A stretch of 12,824 nt of DNA, taken from Rickettsiales bacterium. Its GTDB lineage: Bacteria > Pseudomonadota > Alphaproteobacteria > Rs-D84. The notes below the pieces were generated by a model. That model worked only from the letters and a program-made list of their open reading frames with translations. It was not told the DNA's origin and did no database searches. Position numbers and translations under genes: made by a program. Below are positions 2,345-12,435 of the stretch, one piece after another; positions within the stretch are counted from its first letter, which is position 1; each line of letters starts with the position of its first letter. The stretch spans positions 1 to 12,824 of the forward strand of contig JAITLD010000005.1 in the NCBI GenBank assembly GCA_031278055.1, read 5' to 3'.

Positions 2345-3400
2345 TTAGTTCATCGTGTTTTTCTCATACCACGCGCTTTTAGTGCCGCCATTTTTTACCA
2401 GATAACCTTTATCCACCAATGACTTTACATTCTTGCTTGCGGTATTTGCATTCATTTTTAATTTTTCAATAATTTCTGACATAGCCCATTCCGGATTGTC
2501 ATCAAATAATTCCAGTATAATCCTTGCTGTGCGCGAAAGTTTTGTGTCGTCTGCAACTGCCGCTTTAATTTTTTCTTCCAAATGTTTTTTTTGTTTTTGC
2601 AAGGATATCAGAAAAAATGACAGCCACGGCTCGTAATCAACCTTGTTATCCCAAATGTTTTTCTGGGTGCGTCGCAATGCGCGATAATAACCTTCCTTGC
2701 TTGCTTCTATAATGGATTCCAAAGAACTATATGAAACATAGGTATAACCCTTTTTCAACAGCAGGATTGTCGTCAATGCGCGGGAAAGTCGTCCGTTGCC
2801 ATCTTGAAACGGATGAACAGATAAAAAATGCACGATAAAAATTCCGATTGTAAGCAATGGATGCAATAACGCGTCATCAAGATTCTTTCGCGTCCATTCG
2901 GTAATTTCTTCCATAAGACGCGGGGTGTCAAACGGCGTTGCTGTTTCAAAAACTATACCGATTTCTTTGCCTTTTTCGTCAAAAGCCGCAACGGAATTGG
3001 AAATCTTTTTATATTCTCCGCGATGGGCTTCATCTTTCCCAACATATTGGAGCAAGATTTTATGCATTTGCTTGATATAATTTTCCGATAAAGGAATAAC
3101 CGAATAATCATCAAAAATAATATTCATAAGCTCTGCATAGCCAGCAACTTCTTCTTCATCGCGCGACTTGAATGATTTGCGATTTATATGGGATAGCAGT
3201 TTTTCAATCTCGGCATCGGATAATTTGTTTCCTTCTATACGGTTCGACGAACCGATAGATTCTATGGTTGAAACTTTTTTTAGTGCTTTCAACTGCTCTG
3301 GGCACAAGCGGACAAAGCCGTTCCAAGCCCCTTTGAACTCGTCTAATTCTGCAATAATTCCCAGCATTTGCGGCGTTATTTTGATGTTTTTGATATCCAT
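2345..3400 (-). CDS. Fic-family protein (putative AMP-transferase), class II type with C-terminal winged helix
   Basis: Fic enzymes transfer AMP, or less often other phosphate-linked groups, to hydroxyl side chains of target proteins. The catalytic motif HPFQDGNGRLSR lies at about residues 196-207, complete with His, the acidic residue, the GNG loop and Arg. Near the N-terminus, SNRIEG (about residues 52-57) matches the inhibitory motif [S/T]xxxE[G/N] of class II Fic proteins, so the enzyme probably restrains itself. The last 65 residues (from about LSRTARIILELF to the end) look like a winged helix-turn-helix, as in many Fic proteins that bind DNA. An AAGAGG lies 10 nt before the ATG at 3400 and 7 nt before a GTG at 3403; I chose the ATG. 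The gene is the main cargo of the tRNA-flanked element, and a short ORF follows it. The target is unknown. Confidence 0.92.
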   Translation of the reverse strand: MDIKNIKITPQMLGIIAELDEFKGAWNGFVRLCPEQLKALKKVSTIESIGSSNRIEGNKLSDAEIEKLLSHINRKSFKSRDEEEVAGYAELMNIIFDDYSVIPLSENYIKQMHKILLQYVGKDEAHRGEYKKISNSVAAFDEKGKEIGIVFETATPFDTPRLMEEITEWTRKNLDDALLHPLLTIGIFIVHFLSVHPFQDGNGRLSRALTTILLLKKGYTYVSYSSLESIIEASKEGYYRALRRTQKNIWDNKVDYEPWLSFFLISLQKQKKHLEEKIKAAVADDTKLSRTARIILELFDDNPEWAMSEIIEKLKMNANTASKNVKSLVDKGYLVKNGGTKSAWYEKNTMN

Positions 3401-3425
3401 CACAACCGTACCTCTTTCGAATTTT

Positions 3426-3656: not shown

Positions 3657-3731
3657 TGGTAGCGGAGGAGGGATTTGAACCCCCGACCAAAGGATTATGA
3701 TTCCTGTGCTCTACCCCTGAGCTACTCCGCC
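3657..3731 (-). tRNA. tRNA-Met (CAT)
   Basis: Read on the minus strand, the 75 bases fold as a full cloverleaf. The acceptor arm is GGCGGAG paired with CTCCGCT (the first pair is G-U), the D-arm GCTC/GAGC, and the anticodon arm CAGGA/TCCTT (outer pair mismatched) with loop ATCATAA and anticodon CAT. The variable loop is TGGTC and the T-arm GGGGG/CCCTC with loop TTCAAAT. CCA is encoded. It looks like an alphaproteobacterial elongator tRNA-Met. The initiator is unlikely, because it lacks a C1-A72 mismatch. The Ile2 (lysidine) type is the other CAT option and seems less likely. The part from the anticodon loop to CCA is duplicated at 1768-1812. Confidence 0.95.
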
Positions 3732-6530: not shown

Positions 6531-6616
6531 GTTAAGCGGTTAATGTCGGCGATTAGCGATAGTGATTCGTCATTTAAGGGGAATTTAATTTCTGTTGTCG
6601 CGGCTGTTAACACTCG

Positions 6617-6631
6617 TTTCATATTGCCGCA
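6617..6631 (+). repeat. Shared RNR-promoter block A, copy 1
   Basis: The 15 bp TTTCATATTGCCGCA are repeated exactly at 9776-9790 upstream of nrdJ. In both places CGTCAATTTTT follows exactly 40 bp further on (6657 and 9816). The function is unknown; a regulator site or the remains of a duplicated promoter region would fit. Confidence 0.7.
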
Positions 6632-6714
6632 AGGTTTTTAATACTTTCGCTCTTTCCGTCAATTTTTCTCTGTCAAGATTCTGAAAAAAGTCAGAGAAAG
6701 CGCGCCCCTAAAAA

Positions 6715-6739
6715 AATGCAAGAAAAAAATTATAAAAAT
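6715..6739 (+). repeat. Shared RNR-promoter block B, copy 1 (A/T-rich, UP-element-like)
   Basis: 25 bp beginning AATGCAAG and ending TATAAAAAT are identical to 9873-9897 upstream of nrdJ. The block lies in the A/T-rich tract just upstream of the likely -35 box, where an UP element contacting RNA polymerase would sit. It lies 33 bp before the first NrdR box here and 34 bp before it at nrdJ. Confidence 0.75.
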
Positions 6740-6749
6740 TTAAAAATTT

Positions 6750-6779
6750 TTGTAAGTGCATTAAGGGTTCATGTACTAT
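6750..6779 (+). promoter_or_regulatory. Likely nrdD promoter core
   Basis: TTGTAA (6750-6755), an 18-bp spacer and TACTAT (6774-6779). The -10 box lies inside the first NrdR box, so NrdR binding would block it. The nrdJ upstream region has the same TACTAT inside its first box, at 9933-9938. Confidence 0.5.
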
Positions 6780-6788
6780 ATATTGAAT
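6773..6788 (+). promoter_or_regulatory. NrdR box 1 of the nrdD operon
   Basis: The core ACTATATATTG fits the known NrdR-box core ACWATATATWG at every position. NrdR is the ATP/dATP-sensing repressor of RNR genes and binds paired boxes. The partner box starts exactly 32 bp downstream. Confidence 0.85.
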
Positions 6789-6804
6789 CAAAATCAAAGA
6801 AATC

Positions 6805-6820
6805 GCGCTATATGTAGTAA
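6805..6820 (+). promoter_or_regulatory. NrdR box 2 of the nrdD operon
   Basis: The core GCTATATGTAG has two differences from the NrdR core. Its start is 32 bp (three helical turns) after that of box 1, the spacing expected for cooperative NrdR binding. Confidence 0.78.
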
Positions 6821-6836
6821 ATAAGGGTTTTTGGAA

Positions 6837-8849
6837 ATGGCTGGAAAGGCGGATATGTCTTGGAATGTGGTTAAAAGGAATGGTGATTTGGCGCCGTTCG
6901 ATTCGACCAAAATCAGAAATGCGATCAGAGCGGCCGGCGAGGCGACGGTTCCTTTTTCCGATTCTGATTTGAATGATTTGGTTTCCAAAGTTATCGATGT
7001 GATCGGGCACAAATACAGTGCCGGACAAGCTGTGTTTCTAGAAAAAATTCAGGATATAGTAGAGCAGGTTCTGATTGCCAATGAACATTATGATACGGCC
7101 AGGGCCTATATTCTGTATCGCGAAAAGCGGGCGCAGTCCCGCGCGGATAGCCAGATAAAGGTCGATGTCGAAAAATCTGTAAAAGAATACATCGGCCAAT
7201 TGGATTGGCGCGTGAACGAAAATGCAAATCAAGGCTATTCTTTGGGCGGCATGATTATAAACATAGCGGGTAAAGTGGTCGCGAATTACTGGCTGTCGTA
7301 TGTATATCCCAAAGAAATCGGCGAGGCGCATCGAAATGGCGATATTCATTTGCATGATTTATCCATGCTGTCCGCTTATTGCGCCGGGTGGAGTCTGCGG
7401 CAACTGTTGGAAGAGGGTTTCAACGGAGTTCCGGGCCACGTCGAATCGGTTGCCCCGAAACATTTGTCGTCGGTTGTCGGACAGATGGTGAACTTTATGG
7501 GAACCTTGCAGAACGAATGGGCGGGCGCGCAGGCGTTCAGTAGCGTGGATACCTATCTGGCCCCGTTTGTGCGAATCGACGATATGACGTATGAAAGTGT
7601 TAAACAAAAGATTCAAGAGCTTATATTCAATCTGAATGTGCCGAGCCGGTGGGGGACGCAGACACCGTTCACGAATTTTACATTCGACGGCACATGTCCG
7701 GCGGATTTGGCCGATATTCATCCGAAAATCGGGGGAAAGACGGTTGATTTCAAATACGGAGATTTGCAAAAAGAAATAGATATGGTCAACAAGGCGTATG
7801 TTGAAGTAATGGCCGCCGGCGACGCCAAGGGACGACCGTTTACGTTTCCGATTCCAACTTACAATATAACCGAGGATTTTCAATGGGACGGGGAAATTGC
7901 CGACGCGATTTTCGAAATGGCCGCGAAATACGGAACGCCATATTTTCAAAACTTTCTGAATTCCGACATGGAGCCGACGGATGTTCGCTCGATGTGTTGC
8001 CGCCTGCGGCTTGATGTGCGCGAATTATTGAAGCGCGGAAACGGTCTATTCGGTTCGGCCGAGCAAACCGGCTCAATAGGCGTTGTGACTATAAACTGCG
8101 CGCGAATCGGATACAATTTCAAAAATGATTCGGATGGAATGTATAAGCGGCTGGATTATCTTTTGAACTTTGCCAAAACAAGTTTGGAATTAAAAAGAAA
8201 AACAATTCAGAAATTGATGGATGGCGGGCTTTATCCGTTCACAAAGCGTTACTTGGGCAGGCTTGACAACCATTTCTCGACCATCGGAATCAACGGAGTG
8301 AATGAGATGATTCGGAATTTCACAAATGATTCGCATGACATCACGGACGAATACGGTCAGAAATTCGCGATTGATTTTCTGAATCATATCCGTGAGAAGA
8401 TGTCGGAATTTCAAGAAGAGACCGGGCATATGTATAATTTGGAGGCCACTCCGGCCGAAGGTACGACATACCGGTTTGCCAAGGAAGACCAGAAACTTTA
8501 TACGGATATTATTCAGGCCGGGACTAAAAAGGCGCCTTATTATACGAATTCAAGCCAGATACCCGTAGGATTCAGCGACGATCCGTTTGAGGTTTTGGAA
8601 TTGCAGGACGAATTGCAGACAAAATACACGGGTGGGACGGTTCTTCATTTATATATGAACGAACGTATTTCTGATTCGCGCGTATGCCGCGATATAGTAA
8701 AGCGCATATTTCAAAATTATCATGTTCCGTATCTTACAATCACCCCAACGTTTTCAATCTGTCCGAAACATGGATACATAGCTGGCGAGCACGAATATTG
8801 CCCGCTTTGTGATGAAGAATTAAAAAAAGGAGTAAAAAATGGAAAATAG
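6837..8849 (+). CDS. nrdD: Anaerobic (class III) ribonucleoside-triphosphate reductase, large part lacking the glycyl-radical domain
   Basis: It reduces ribonucleotides to deoxyribonucleotides without oxygen. An ATP-cone (VVKRNGDLAPFDSTKIRNAI onward) fills the first 100 residues and should sense dATP. The conserved AYCAGWSLRQLL at about 180 and RSMCCRL at about 386 carry the active-site cysteines. The zinc ribbon CPKHGY...CPLC lies at about 642-658. The frame then ends after GVKNGK, without the RVxGY glycyl-radical motif that every complete NrdD has. That motif is in the next ORF (8839-9024), which overlaps this one by 11 bp. I chose ATG 6837, which has AAGGG 10 nt upstream; ATG 6855 and TTG 6831 are possible. 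The gene is first in an operon with the glycyl-radical peptide and nrdG, behind paired NrdR boxes. Confidence 0.95.
   Translation: MAGKADMSWNVVKRNGDLAPFDSTKIRNAIRAAGEATVPFSDSDLNDLVSKVIDVIGHKYSAGQAVFLEKIQDIVEQVLIANEHYDTARAYILYREKRAQSRADSQIKVDVEKSVKEYIGQLDWRVNENANQGYSLGGMIINIAGKVVANYWLSYVYPKEIGEAHRNGDIHLHDLSMLSAYCAGWSLRQLLEEGFNGVPGHVESVAPKHLSSVVGQMVNFMGTLQNEWAGAQAFSSVDTYLAPFVRIDDMTYESVKQKIQELIFNLNVPSRWGTQTPFTNFTFDGTCPADLADIHPKIGGKTVDFKYGDLQKEIDMVNKAYVEVMAAGDAKGRPFTFPIPTYNITEDFQWDGEIADAIFEMAAKYGTPYFQNFLNSDMEPTDVRSMCCRLRLDVRELLKRGNGLFGSAEQTGSIGVVTINCARIGYNFKNDSDGMYKRLDYLLNFAKTSLELKRKTIQKLMDGGLYPFTKRYLGRLDNHFSTIGINGVNEMIRNFTNDSHDITDEYGQKFAIDFLNHIREKMSEFQEETGHMYNLEATPAEGTTYRFAKEDQKLYTDIIQAGTKKAPYYTNSSQIPVGFSDDPFEVLELQDELQTKYTGGTVLHLYMNERISDSRVCRDIVKRIFQNYHVPYLTITPTFSICPKHGYIAGEHEYCPLCDEELKKGVKNGK
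8826..8832 (+). promoter_or_regulatory. Strong ribosome binding site for the separate glycyl-radical peptide
   Basis: AAAGGAG lies 6 nt before the ATG at 8839, inside the end of nrdD. An in-frame TAA at 8833-8835 closes the second frame just upstream of this ATG. The pair argues for new initiation here rather than a read-through or frameshifted fusion. Confidence 0.85.
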
Positions 8850-9024
8850 ACAAAAATGCGAAATTTGGACTCGCGTGATGGGATACTGTCGGCCTGTTTC
8901 TAATTTCAATATGGGCAAGGTGTCCGAATTTAAGGAACGCAAGTTTTTCAGCGAGACGATTTGCCTGGATTCTATGGAAAAATTCACAGGTTCTTCAAAT
9001 GGGCTGTCCATCCGTCTCCCATAG
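8839..9024 (+). CDS. Stand-alone glycyl-radical domain of class III RNR (NrdD C-terminal part), 61 aa
   Basis: The short protein holds TRVMGYCRPVSNFN at residues 11-24, then GKVSEFKERKFF. It matches the extreme C-terminus of NrdD proteins, where the Gly of RVxGY (here Gly15) carries the stored radical made by NrdG. With the preceding gene it makes up a complete NrdD, split just after the zinc ribbon. A Cys follows the GY pair (Cys17). About 20 further residues after the family's normal end have no match I know. Initiation looks independent: there is a strong ribosome binding site and an upstream in-frame stop. The closest functional parallel is YfiD/GrcA, which replaces the damaged radical domain of pyruvate formate-lyase. 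A true frameshift mutation is the alternative. Confidence 0.9.
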   Translation: MENRQKCEIWTRVMGYCRPVSNFNMGKVSEFKERKFFSETICLDSMEKFTGSSNGLSIRLP

Positions 9025-9028
9025 GAAA

Positions 9029-9751
9029 ATGCCGCGTGATATTCCAATAATCGGCGGTTTCGTGCCATTCACAACCCTCGATTACCCCGGTTGTGTCAGC
9101 ATGGTGCTGTTTTTACAGGGGTGTCCTTGGCGATGCGCCTACTGTTCGAATCCGCATTTATTCGGTATGCGGAAGGCCACAGAGAAAGATATAGAAAATT
9201 GGGAATCGATTTTGAATCGCTTGCGTCGACGGATAAAGCTTGTAGATGCTGTCGTATTCAGCGGCGGCGAGGCAGTGGCGCAGGCGGACGGAGTATTGGC
9301 CGCCATAAAAGAAATTCATGAAATAAGTCCGCATTATAAAATAGGATTGCACACCAACGGCTGCATGCCGCGTGAAGTCGCCAGACTTTTGCCGATGATT
9401 GATTGGGTGGGTCTTGACATAAAAGCGCCGGCGGACAAATACGATTCTATAACCGGCGTTTCAAATTCCGCCGGTCCGGCATTCGAGACATTGGATTTGC
9501 TTTTGAAAGATGGCGTTTCGTTTGAATGCAGAACGACATGCGACCCGCGTTTTCTAACCAAGAAAGATATATTGGGATTGGCGGATTTCTTGTCGAAAAA
9601 AGGCGTTGAAAATTATGCTATCCAAAAATTTCGCCCATCTGACAAAGATAAAAATGATGTTTCTTCGATGGATATAACGCAGTTTTTTGCCGACAAGGAT
9701 TTTGAGTTATCGCTCCGTAAAAAATTCATGAATTTAACATTAAGATGGTAG
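9029..9751 (+). CDS. nrdG: Anaerobic RNR activating protein, radical SAM (NrdG2-like)
   Basis: The activase uses S-adenosylmethionine and a [4Fe-4S] cluster to place the radical on the glycine of NrdD. The cluster motif CPWRCAYC (Cys 32, 36 and 39 of the product) follows the family opening FTTLDYPG and FLQG. SGGEA at about 78 matches the GGE motif that binds SAM. At 240 residues it is longer than the E. coli NrdG and resembles the NrdG2 type. I chose ATG 9029, 4 bp after the previous stop, because it gives the usual short lead-in to the motif. ATG 8999 would add 10 unmatched residues and overlap the previous gene by 26 bp. It is last in its operon. Confidence 0.93.
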   Translation: MPRDIPIIGGFVPFTTLDYPGCVSMVLFLQGCPWRCAYCSNPHLFGMRKATEKDIENWESILNRLRRRIKLVDAVVFSGGEAVAQADGVLAAIKEIHEISPHYKIGLHTNGCMPREVARLLPMIDWVGLDIKAPADKYDSITGVSNSAGPAFETLDLLLKDGVSFECRTTCDPRFLTKKDILGLADFLSKKGVENYAIQKFRPSDKDKNDVSSMDITQFFADKDFELSLRKKFMNLTLRW

Positions 9752-9767
9752 TTTTTTAACTATTTTT
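9749..9767 (+). terminator. Weak terminator-like hairpin after nrdG
   Basis: TAGTT, a 4-nt T loop and AACTA form a 5-bp stem overlapping the nrdG stop codon, followed by five T. The stem is short and A/T-rich. Confidence 0.3.
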
Positions 9768-9775
9768 CTGTTCGT

Positions 9776-9790
9776 TTTCATATTGCCGCA
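9776..9790 (+). repeat. Shared RNR-promoter block A, copy 2
   Basis: This is the exact copy of 6617-6631. CGTCAATTTTT follows 40 bp later at 9816-9826, as at nrdD. Confidence 0.7.
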
Positions 9791-9872
9791 TTTTTTCTAG
9801 CACGATTGAATTTTGCGTCAATTTTTTTAATCCGAATCAGCAAAAAATGCTAAAAACCTGCCGTGTTAAGAT

Positions 9873-9897
9873 AATGCAAGAAAAAAATTATAAAAAT
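9873..9897 (+). repeat. Shared RNR-promoter block B, copy 2 (A/T-rich, UP-element-like)
   Basis: 25 bp identical to 6715-6739. It starts 97 bp after block A begins, against 98 bp at nrdD. A further A/T tract (AAAAAATTTTTTT) follows it, as at nrdD. Confidence 0.75.
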
Positions 9898-9931
9898 AAA
9901 AAATTTTTTTACCCCTGATCTCATTTTGAAA

Positions 9932-9947
9932 ATACTATATATCGTAT
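9932..9947 (+). promoter_or_regulatory. NrdR box 1 of the nrdJ operon
   Basis: The core ACTATATATCG has one difference from the NrdR core. It contains TACTAT (9933-9938), a likely -10 box. The partner box starts exactly 32 bp downstream. Confidence 0.8.
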
Positions 9948-9963
9948 TAGAAACTGAAATTTG

Positions 9964-9979
9964 GCACTATACATTGATT
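9964..9979 (+). promoter_or_regulatory. NrdR box 2 of the nrdJ operon
   Basis: The core ACTATACATTG has one difference from the NrdR core. The 32-bp step from box 1 is the same as in front of nrdD. The box would lie in the 5' leader. Confidence 0.8.
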
Positions 9980-10033
9980 GCAAAGCAGTTTTAAGATATA
10001 ATTAAAATGATGTAAAATTGGAGAATCGGAAAG

Positions 10034-11899
10034 ATGAACGAGTCGCTACGCCTATTATCGGATTTGACTTTCTATATGAAATATTCCAAGTATGACCCGT
10101 CAAAGAAGCGGCGCGAAACTTGGTTTGAGACGATTGAACGCAATAAAAACATGCACCTTTCCAAATTCCCGCAATGCGGGGCCGAAATAGAAAAGGCCTA
10201 TGAATTGGTTTTGGCAAAAAAGATTCTGCCTTCGATGCGGTCCATGCAATTCGGGGGCCCCGCGGTCGAACAGAACAATGCGCGGATTTACAACTGTTCG
10301 GCCATAGGACTTGATTCGCTGGATTCATTTGCGGATTTGTTTTATTTGTTATTGTGCGGTACCGGTGTTGGATTTTCAGTTCGCCATAGTTTTATCGGAA
10401 AGCTGCCGCCGATGAAGCCGAAATCTGGAAGAAAGACGATTTTTGCGCCGGAAGATTCCATAGAAGGGTGGGCCGATTGTATTCGCGCCATAACGAAGGC
10501 GTATTTTGAGACAGGCGATGACCTGGAATTTGATTTCTCGCCGATTCGACCAAAGGGCGCTCTGATTCATTCGTCAATGTGCGCCGCCCCGGGGCCGGGG
10601 CCTTTGTCCGTGACATGTGAAAACATAAAGAAAATGTTGGACAAAAAAATCGCCGCAAATGATTTTATGCTGACCTCCATAGATTGTTATGACATCTGCT
10701 GCTTTATTTCCGAGGCCGTTCTGTCCGGTGGCGTCCGCCGTTCGGCGATGATTTGCCTGTTTGACAAGGACGACGAGCTGATGCTGCATGCGAAAGAGGG
10801 CGAATGGTGGAAAGATAATCCGCAACGCGGTTTGGCCAATAATTCTGTCCAGTTTGATCGCGCGACGACGACAAAGGAAGAATTTGACGCTATTTTCAAA
10901 CAGACTGAGGCGTCCGGCTGTGGCGAGCCCGGCGTCGTATGGACAAACAATCCCGAATGGCTTGTAAATCCGTGCTGCGAAATCTCAATGCCGTCACGCG
11001 GATTCTGCAATCTGACATCAATCAATCTTGGAACCATCGAATCGCAAGATGATTTTAACGAGCGCGCTTACTACGCGTCGGTTTTGGGAACGTTGCAGGC
11101 GGCTTACACTGATTTCAAATATATTGATTCGCGCTGGAAAAAAAATGCCGAGGAGATGGCTTTGATAGGCGTGTCGTTAACGGGGATCGCCGCCCATCCG
11201 GATTTGACGAAAATAGACTTTGCCGCAGCCGTCGGACAAGTCAAAAAAGCGAATGAAATTATTGCGAAAAAAATAGGAATCAAGACAGCCGATCGTCTGA
11301 CGACAATAAAGCCGGACGGAACAGGATCGTTGGTTTTGGGAACGTCCAGCGGGATTCATCCATGGCATGCGAAACATTATATCCGCCGCCTGCGCGTAAA
11401 TAAATTGGAGCCATTGTATAACTATATGGTGGATAATTTTCCGGATTTGATGGAAGACGAACAGATGAATCCTGAAAAGAACGGGGTTATGTCGCTGGTT
11501 ATCAAGGCGCCGGACGGGGCGATCACCCGACGGAACCAGACGGCATTGGAATTTCTTGAACGAATCAAATATATGTTCGAGCATTGGATAAAGCCCGGTC
11601 ATGTAAGGGGCGACAATTATAATAATGTGTCTTGTACCTGCAATGTCAAGAATCACGAGTGGGACGAGGTGCGCGAATGGATGTGGGAGAATCGCGGCAA
11701 TTATACCGGAATATCGTTGCTTCCGTATTCAGACAGTTCGTATATTCAGGCCCCATTCGAAGATACGAATGAAGAGGTTTATAAAGAGTTCGGAGAAAAA
11801 CATCGCGAATTTCGTCTGGACATGATAGAAGAAGAAAAGAATTTTGTGAATTTCGGGCATGAATCCGCCTGTTCCGGCGGCTCGTGCGAAGTCGTTTGA
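10034..11899 (+). CDS. nrdJ: Adenosylcobalamin-dependent (class II) ribonucleotide reductase, monomeric RTPR type
   Basis: It makes deoxyribonucleotides with a radical generated from coenzyme B12, with or without oxygen. YNCSA (Cys88) and FCNLTSINL (Cys325) carry the redox pair. NPCCE at 312-316 holds the Asn, radical Cys314 and Glu316 of the active site. The C-terminal tail has Cys613 and Cys618 (CSGGSC), the pair that passes electrons from thioredoxin, with the same five-residue step as in the Lactobacillus leichmannii enzyme. The finger loop PDGTGSLVLGTSSGIH lies at 427-442. At 621 residues it is shorter than the 739-residue model enzyme. No ATP-cone is visible. The start has a GGAG 11 nt upstream. 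The gene heads an operon with a cobalamin adenosyltransferase and lies behind paired NrdR boxes. Confidence 0.94.
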   Translation: MNESLRLLSDLTFYMKYSKYDPSKKRRETWFETIERNKNMHLSKFPQCGAEIEKAYELVLAKKILPSMRSMQFGGPAVEQNNARIYNCSAIGLDSLDSFADLFYLLLCGTGVGFSVRHSFIGKLPPMKPKSGRKTIFAPEDSIEGWADCIRAITKAYFETGDDLEFDFSPIRPKGALIHSSMCAAPGPGPLSVTCENIKKMLDKKIAANDFMLTSIDCYDICCFISEAVLSGGVRRSAMICLFDKDDELMLHAKEGEWWKDNPQRGLANNSVQFDRATTTKEEFDAIFKQTEASGCGEPGVVWTNNPEWLVNPCCEISMPSRGFCNLTSINLGTIESQDDFNERAYYASVLGTLQAAYTDFKYIDSRWKKNAEEMALIGVSLTGIAAHPDLTKIDFAAAVGQVKKANEIIAKKIGIKTADRLTTIKPDGTGSLVLGTSSGIHPWHAKHYIRRLRVNKLEPLYNYMVDNFPDLMEDEQMNPEKNGVMSLVIKAPDGAITRRNQTALEFLERIKYMFEHWIKPGHVRGDNYNNVSCTCNVKNHEWDEVREWMWENRGNYTGISLLPYSDSSYIQAPFEDTNEEVYKEFGEKHREFRLDMIEEEKNFVNFGHESACSGGSCEVV

Positions 11900-11910
11900 A
11901 AGGAGTTAAG

Positions 11911-12435
11911 ATGGCGCAGGTTACGACAAAACTTGGCGATAATGGAATGACGCAGGTCGCGCCGGACGCTATGGCGCCGAAATCGGCGACGATATTGGAC
12001 GTCATGGGAAATATTGACGAATTATCATGCGTGCTTGGCCTGTGCGGCGATAAATTCGATTCGATTCAGTCATTTTTATCCGAATTAATGGGATACCTTT
12101 ATTACAAGAATAACAACGAGTCGCGAATCGCCGGACAAGTTGCGTTGATGGAAGACTATATTTCTTCGCACAACAATTCGATTCCAACTTGGTTTGTAAA
12201 CCCGCGTGGCTTTGTGTCATTGGCGCGCGCGATTTGTCGTCGGGCCGAGCGCAGCATTGTCCGCATGAACAACGAATTGCGCGAGCAGGGGAGTGCCGGA
12301 TATAATCTGTATCCGGTAATGAGGTATCTGAATCGGTTATCGGATTATTTGTTTGTGAAGAGTTTCGAGCGTGAAGCCAATATGCCCGAACTGTTTCCTG
12401 ATGAATTGGCCGTTGCCGAAAGAGTTGCAATGTGA
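11911..12435 (+). CDS. pduO: PduO-type ATP:cob(I)alamin adenosyltransferase
   Basis: It attaches the adenosyl group of ATP to cob(I)alamin, giving the coenzyme that NrdJ needs. The family's ATP-binding opening is present as TKLGDNGMT (residues 6-14), followed by IDELS at 35-39, RRAER at 110-114 and NRLSDYLF at 141-148. The 174 residues make it slightly shorter than most PduO/MMAB proteins. ATG 11911 has AAAGGAG 5 nt upstream and lies 11 bp after the nrdJ stop. A longer frame upstream overlaps nrdJ and adds no family sequence. Placed directly behind nrdJ, it very likely supplies that enzyme. Cofactor synthesis genes for B12 itself are not in the window, so scavenging is possible. Confidence 0.92.
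   Translation: MAQVTTKLGDNGMTQVAPDAMAPKSATILDVMGNIDELSCVLGLCGDKFDSIQSFLSELMGYLYYKNNNESRIAGQVALMEDYISSHNNSIPTWFVNPRGFVSLARAICRRAERSIVRMNNELREQGSAGYNLYPVMRYLNRLSDYLFVKSFEREANMPELFPDELAVAERVAM

Follow-up and report, generated by a model that had tools for sequence, protein, structure and literature searches.

The window considered here is the whole 12,824-nt stretch at the start of a contig from a Rickettsiales bacterium, and it carries a class III ribonucleotide reductase locus in which the catalytic chain, the glycyl-radical domain (GRD) and the activase follow one another as separate ORFs. The genes and signals are the following (L and G numbers further below denote loci and genomes):

6837..8849, + strand: nrdD catalytic chain, 670 aa (read directly; profile matches), with an ATP-cone at aa 10-99 and the NRDD core at aa 128-660 by domain profiles and no radical glycine
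8760..8810, + strand: zinc-ribbon-like CxxH...CxxC end of NrdD (C642, H645, C655, C658; from the sequence)
8827..8832, + strand: Shine-Dalgarno AAGGAG, 6 nt ahead of the GRD ATG at 8839 (from the sequence)
8833..8835, + strand: in-frame TAA immediately upstream of the GRD ORF (from the sequence)
8839..9024, + strand: stand-alone glycyl-radical domain protein (GRD), 61 aa (PF13597 positions 529-562; relatives)
8881..8883, + strand: codon of the predicted radical glycine, Gly15, in RVMGY of the GRD (from the sequence)
9029..9751, + strand: nrdG2, radical-SAM activase (TIGR02495, 185.2 bits against a cut-off of 131.15)

The larger protein has the class III catalytic domain (PF13597, 594.6 bits against a curated cut-off of 26.2; NF006126, 1096.8 bits against 548) together with an ATP-cone (PF03477, 81.6 bits), and its CCRL motif, which is invariant across 33 aligned NrdDs and aligns with the T. 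maritima NrdD, may hold the finger-loop cysteine for the thiyl radical. The initial annotation had this chain ending after its zinc ribbon without RVxGY, and direct reading of 6837-8849 proves that correct to the base: the C-terminal end is SICPKHGYIAGEHEYCPLCDEELKKGVKNGK-stop, the stop comes 12 residues after the last zinc-ribbon cysteine, RVxGY is absent, and the chain stops at position 529 of 562 in PF13597, leaving no radical glycine on the same polypeptide. The CxxH...CxxC end itself is predicted, by analogy, to bind zinc.

The remainder of the profile is found on the small ORF, which begins MENRQKCEIWTRVMGYCRPVSNFNMGK and lies in the +1 frame, overlapping nrdD by 11 nt in an A-rich stretch; here too the first description, of RVMGY in an overlapping 61-aa ORF with its own Shine-Dalgarno at 6 nt and an in-frame stop upstream, agrees with what can be read directly. 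PF13597 (562 positions) is matched by NrdD over 1-529 and by the GRD ORF over 529-562, the latter at 32.5 bits against the cut-off of 26.2, and since both ORFs exceed that cut-off and meet at 529, the profile is divided at the junction. PF13597 is also the sole family in a Pfam scan of the small protein (E up to 0.001), and PDB sequences searched with the GRD profile (hmmsearch) gave no match up to E = 1. The ORF is beyond chance, in that a search restricted to proteins of similar length matched it to 37 others of 53-99 aa, some of them on short contigs. Among 26 aligned stand-alone relatives the radical glycine of RVMGY is invariant in all 26, as are 18 columns altogether, and the relatives are under purifying selection, with a pooled pN/pS of 0.16 for 104 different bacterial cores and 0.19 for 66 viral cores. 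A consensus scan of 6550-10050, which is weak evidence, shows nothing resembling a + strand promoter or terminator at the junction.

A cysteine shortly ahead of the radical loop, Cys7 of the GRD (8857-8859), is kept in 26 of 26 aligned split-type GRDs, some phage GRDs have V or T in its place, and two fused proteins (L224 and G470) are without it; possibly this cysteine and the CxxH...CxxC ribbon of NrdD form a shared metal site or serve a redox role across both chains.

The dedicated radical-SAM activase is the next gene, nrdG2, starting 4 nt 3' of the GRD ORF, with an alternative upstream ATG at 8999. As assembled (674 kb, 92 contigs, 83% complete), the genome holds one match to the GRD and one to NrdD, so that in this organism the small protein would be a required subunit and not a back-up, and a claim of repair from a spare copy has no basis in it. 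Elsewhere in the window lie a class II (B12-dependent) reductase-like gene of 621 aa (10034-11899; 214 bits against an RTPR cut-off of 340), followed by a cobalamin adenosyltransferase gene (11884-12435), which gives this small genome neighbouring genes for class II and class III reductases, as well as a gene for a Fic-family protein with a winged-helix match (2345-3403, -) and a tRNA-Met gene (3657-3731, -).

An overlap of 11 nt in A-rich DNA could also arise if one fused NrdD had been broken by a sequencing or assembly error, or were joined in the cell by a programmed +1 frameshift, and it is the relatives that speak against this. In 100 genomes (the window's and 99 relatives), NrdD was matched in 56, a few of these matches being weak or partial, and the small protein in 53; the break and adjacent short ORF that had been proposed as the thing to look for are there, the GRD being separate and downstream in 100 of 116 NrdD loci. 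These loci are not all independent. Three same-genome duplicates were dropped before the count, along with ORFs that extend past the edge of the locus and matches that fall below 45% identity or stop short of residue 600. The remaining 16 comprise 14 fused loci, one with the GRD upstream of nrdD (L014) and one that is separate and was missed by the counting script (L073). Relative to nrdD, the 100 downstream GRDs fall in frame +1 (41), +2 (30) or 0 (29), across gaps of -23 to 421 nt (median 33; 7 overlap), and in one further genome the GRD is about 9.5 kb away (G404). All 100 GRDs have an ATG start, and a Shine-Dalgarno of at least 4 bases precedes 96 of them, a figure favourable by construction because the start was chosen for its Shine-Dalgarno. 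An independent count places a Shine-Dalgarno at some in-frame start in 100 of 108 bacterial and 54 of 79 viral GRD ORFs, against 8.6% and 15%, respectively, of individual out-of-frame starts, in a comparison that favours the in-frame side (best of several starts) and whose pattern missed three loci. Junctions L003-L017, read directly, show a separate small ORF, mostly with AGGAGG-type sites.

Continuous NrdDs in close relatives would have told for a single enzyme, and none was found: the last 110 residues of the nearest NrdD proteins lack the radical motif in 119 of 119 (the best 119 of 8000 scored). Apparent fusions suggested by open-frame length (e.g., 756 for both parts of G644) were rejected by direct reading, which finds a stop before the GRD in all eight cases read (G580, G644, G657, G286, G540, G590, G387 and G455). 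Now considering that GRDs occur in all three frames, upstream or at a distance, that each has a start of its own and that most have a Shine-Dalgarno too, there is no one mechanism that could fuse all these arrangements; error and frameshift are thus excluded for the group, and for the window itself the odds of either are very small. The proposal that the glycyl-radical domain is separately translated is strongly supported, and the notion that the split is private to the window genome is rejected, because the same arrangement recurs in relatives.

How far the arrangement extends can be gauged in several samples. Stand-alone GRDs served to rank bacterial contig loci by similarity, and of the best 80 (there are others) a stop-to-stop script scored 76 as separate, 2 as truncated and 2 as fused; of the last two, L072 proved split on inspection and L095 (Candidatus Riflebacteria) is fused through a long linker. 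Split bearers among the matches listed include Pleomorphomonas, Magnetospirillum, Thiohalocapsa, Nitrincola, Pollutimonas, Rugamonas, Janthinobacterium, Herbaspirillum, Achromobacter, Cupriavidus, Undibacterium, Neorhizobium, Kangiella, Pseudomonas and Acidobacteria MAGs. In a less biased sample of 397 Pseudomonadota genomes, PF13597 was over cut-off in 65, of which I read 19 as split (the window included) and 46 as fused, the latter mostly of one E. coli-like type; direct reading gave G286, G540, G309 and G404 as split and G470 and G261 as fused. Within the genus of Pseudomonas yangonensis (L118), as the search tool defines that group, NrdD was present in 23 of 99 genomes and split in 23 of 23, four of which were read directly (G580, G644, G657 and G590).

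The Acidobacteriota sample holds both forms, fused at 63% identity (L259 and L260) and split at 61-66%, along with a distant split set (L263, L265 and L266) that has YSRVVGY-type GRDs; the NrdD ends of L265 and L266 lack the usual ribbon cysteines. A further split lineage is indicated by the sequences of two genomes of one genus, G387 (L284) and G455 (L253), where an NrdD of the distant, E. coli-like type (22% identity for G455) stops once past its ribbon, and RRITGY, in place of RVMGY, is found on an ORF of its own. In Marinicella sp. W31 (G565 C1:3687091-3688693), NrdD appears as two overlapping matches (profile 2-308 and 290-531), possibly a break inside the catalytic chain.

Since fused relatives at about 62-63% identity occur in other lineages (L095, L259 and L260), the split is not required for function, and one must ask whether it has any benefit at all. 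The enzyme could be a permanent two-chain product of neutral gene fission, its small subunit never exchanged and never serving repair, as would fit the GRD adjoining nrdD both in this window and at 100 of the 116 loci, the fused proteins at 62-63% identity, and a tree of 109 NrdDs (92 split, 17 fused) on which the split/fused label needs only 5 changes. That tree was made by a quick method with the C-terminus left out, the E. coli-like type and one genus thinned and G455 omitted, and several long branches meet in it; well-supported branches force 4 of the 5 changes, which means that splitting and/or re-fusion happened more than once. Neutral fission is harder to reconcile with splits in at least two further NrdD lineages (L263/L265/L266 and G387/G455), and with the two kinds of unattached GRD described below, extra copies in bacteria and lone copies in virus contigs. 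I regard it as a serious contender that falls somewhat short of even odds.

That two such chains would work together is suggested by Cupriavidus necator H16, whose plasmid pHG1 encodes a 676-aa NrdD, a 66-aa 'nrdD' and nrdG in the same arrangement, and whose NrdDG was reported as essential for complete denitrification (PMC2864759). The split enzyme is very probably functional. Similar split arrangements lie on Sulfuricystis and Bradyrhizobium plasmids, and public annotation of these plasmids already names the small gene 'nrdD'. Rmet_5138 would be such a small ORF as well; tblastn finds a GRD at its site, where the record shows no annotated gene. Specialists may know split NrdD from databases. 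The portions available of the relevant papers describe the class III enzymes of Pseudomonas aeruginosa and Cupriavidus as nrdD plus nrdG only, and in the open-access literature, as far as its texts were available, nothing was found that describes an NrdD split in this way, or phages in which the NrdD glycyl-radical domain stands alone.

With high confidence, then, though judged from sequence, the locus would encode an intact class III ribonucleotide reductase made of two polypeptides. NrdD would supply the ATP-cone, catalytic barrel and zinc ribbon, and the separately translated 61-aa protein the C-terminal loop with the radical glycine; NrdG2 would form the glycyl radical at Gly15 of this 61-aa chain, and the loop would dock into the NrdD barrel to generate the thiyl radical in the manner of the covalent loop of fused enzymes. 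An AlphaFold2 model of the natural fused homologue L095 (mean pLDDT 65, last 49 residues below 50) was too poor to interpret. Since no covalent bond ties the radical part to NrdD, a small subunit cleaved by oxygen could be exchanged for a fresh one, made from its own gene, supplied by a paralogue at another site in the genome, or brought in by a phage. Whether such exchange or repair is the reason the split is kept I would put at even odds. The purpose first suggested for it, renewal of an oxygen-cleaved tail in the way YfiD/GrcA serves pyruvate formate-lyase, would find indirect support in unlinked additional copies, some of them near clpB or class I nrdA, and in virus contigs that have this domain alone.

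Paralogues do exist, for at least one unlinked extra GRD accompanies the one adjoining NrdD in 12 of 33 genomes searched whole, a sample in which 13 were chosen for an orphan GRD and in which the stop between NrdD and GRD was not read in every case. Such copies sit beside clpB in two proteobacterial MAGs (L065 and L110), and Magnetospirillum fulvum (L090) has one directly ahead of class I nrdA; these look chromosomal. Around 14 bacterial orphan GRD loci, 4 of 72 ORFs match integrase, and at bacterial (L075 and L076) as well as viral (L142, L155 and L163) loci the GRD gene converges tail to tail on an integrase-like ORF, which makes some of the extra bacterial copies resemble prophage genes.

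Furthermore, GRDs are found in viruses themselves. IMG/VR virus contigs hold 147 GRD relatives, and of the best 80 of these 147, 79 are separate and 1 is truncated, and tblastn with the window's NrdD and NrdG2 matched nothing in the sequence flanking any of the 80. Catalytic NrdD was absent from all 59 of the 80 virus records searched whole with PF13597, which gave GRD-sized matches only, one record (G140) having a second, degenerate one; the NrdG-type activase PF13353 was over cut-off in none of 50 records, with one sub-threshold match, and because no virus record was rated at least 90% complete these absences are not proof. The evidence comes mostly from IMG/VR contigs, which may be prophages or fragments, and from one or two annotated phage records. 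Among the flanking ORFs (122 of 165 listed, from 39 loci) there are 7 integrase and 6 phage lysozyme matches, and 1-2 matches each to tail, portal and DNA polymerase families. The phage family phrog_4132, labelled 'unknown function', is matched by 7 of 7 queries, the window's GRD included, and appears to contain an NrdD-type glycyl-radical domain at about positions 110-162 of 179. The archaeal virus ANMV-1 (L277 2186-2620) encodes a 144-aa protein annotated as an anaerobic reductase that consists of a zinc-ribbon-like part and a GRD only, the catalytic NrdD being absent, and that matches phrog_487 (NrdD-like), not phrog_4132.

What would a phage do with such a gene? These proteins could be decoys or inhibitors of the host enzyme, or have nothing to do with ribonucleotide reduction, as the missing NrdD (59 of 59 records) and above-threshold activase (0 of 50) and the 'unknown function' label of phrog_4132 would allow. 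I consider this unlikely, roughly a one-in-four prospect, given that the radical glycine and its surrounding motif are under purifying selection (pN/pS 0.19), that 3 of 62 different viral cores are identical to a bacterial one over 28 residues, and that phage T4 Y06I offers a precedent by reactivating pyruvate formate-lyase (PFL; PMC8683613). That the phage copies serve the host enzyme I would put at somewhat less than an even chance.

The most far-reaching interpretation, with a probability of about 0.4, is a widespread two-subunit class III enzyme with an interchangeable radical subunit, of which phages, prophages and at least one archaeal virus would carry the radical part alone, so as to recharge the enzyme of the host or commandeer it. 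If true, this would be a spare-part system for ribonucleotide reductase, and the spare-part candidate is at the same time the normal architecture in many bacteria. With the radical subunit separate, radical installation, oxygen repair and subunit exchange become directly testable, and lone phage genes of 'unknown function' gain a concrete hypothesis.

Several known systems come close. Phage nrdD genes split by introns, inteins or fragmentation (PMC3653736) likewise come in pieces; those are interruptions inside whole NrdDs, whereas the GRD virus records hold the last domain only, with no catalytic part found. The class II NrdJa/NrdJb also has its C-terminal part as a second chain (PMC9669993), but there the second chain comprises other C-terminal domains and bears no glycyl radical. 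The validated spare parts are YfiD (GrcA) and T4 Y06I only, according to PMC8683613, which adds that other glycyl radical enzymes may have them; both are small autonomous glycyl-radical proteins, one of them phage-encoded, yet they are about 14 kDa and act as PFL back-ups beside an intact tail, while the GRD has 61 aa and matches PF13597 of NrdD as its only Pfam family, with no match to that of the PFL C-terminus at E up to 0.001. Unlike the parent enzyme of YfiD, the window's NrdD has no glycyl tail of its own and the GRD is the only source of a radical glycine found; extra GRDs occur in other genomes. Close too are the fused enzymes, whose ATP-cone and/or barrel and zinc-ribbon region (Prevotella copri 8p23, T. 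maritima 4coi/4u3e) align to the window NrdD and whose nrdDG operons place an NrdG-type activase gene adjacent, as here. In P. copri NrdD the glycyl-radical domain (676-739), with the zinc site and Gly711, forms the C-terminus of one chain (PMC11226230), and by comparison the window enzyme is cut between zinc ribbon and glycine loop, the loop being a separate protein.
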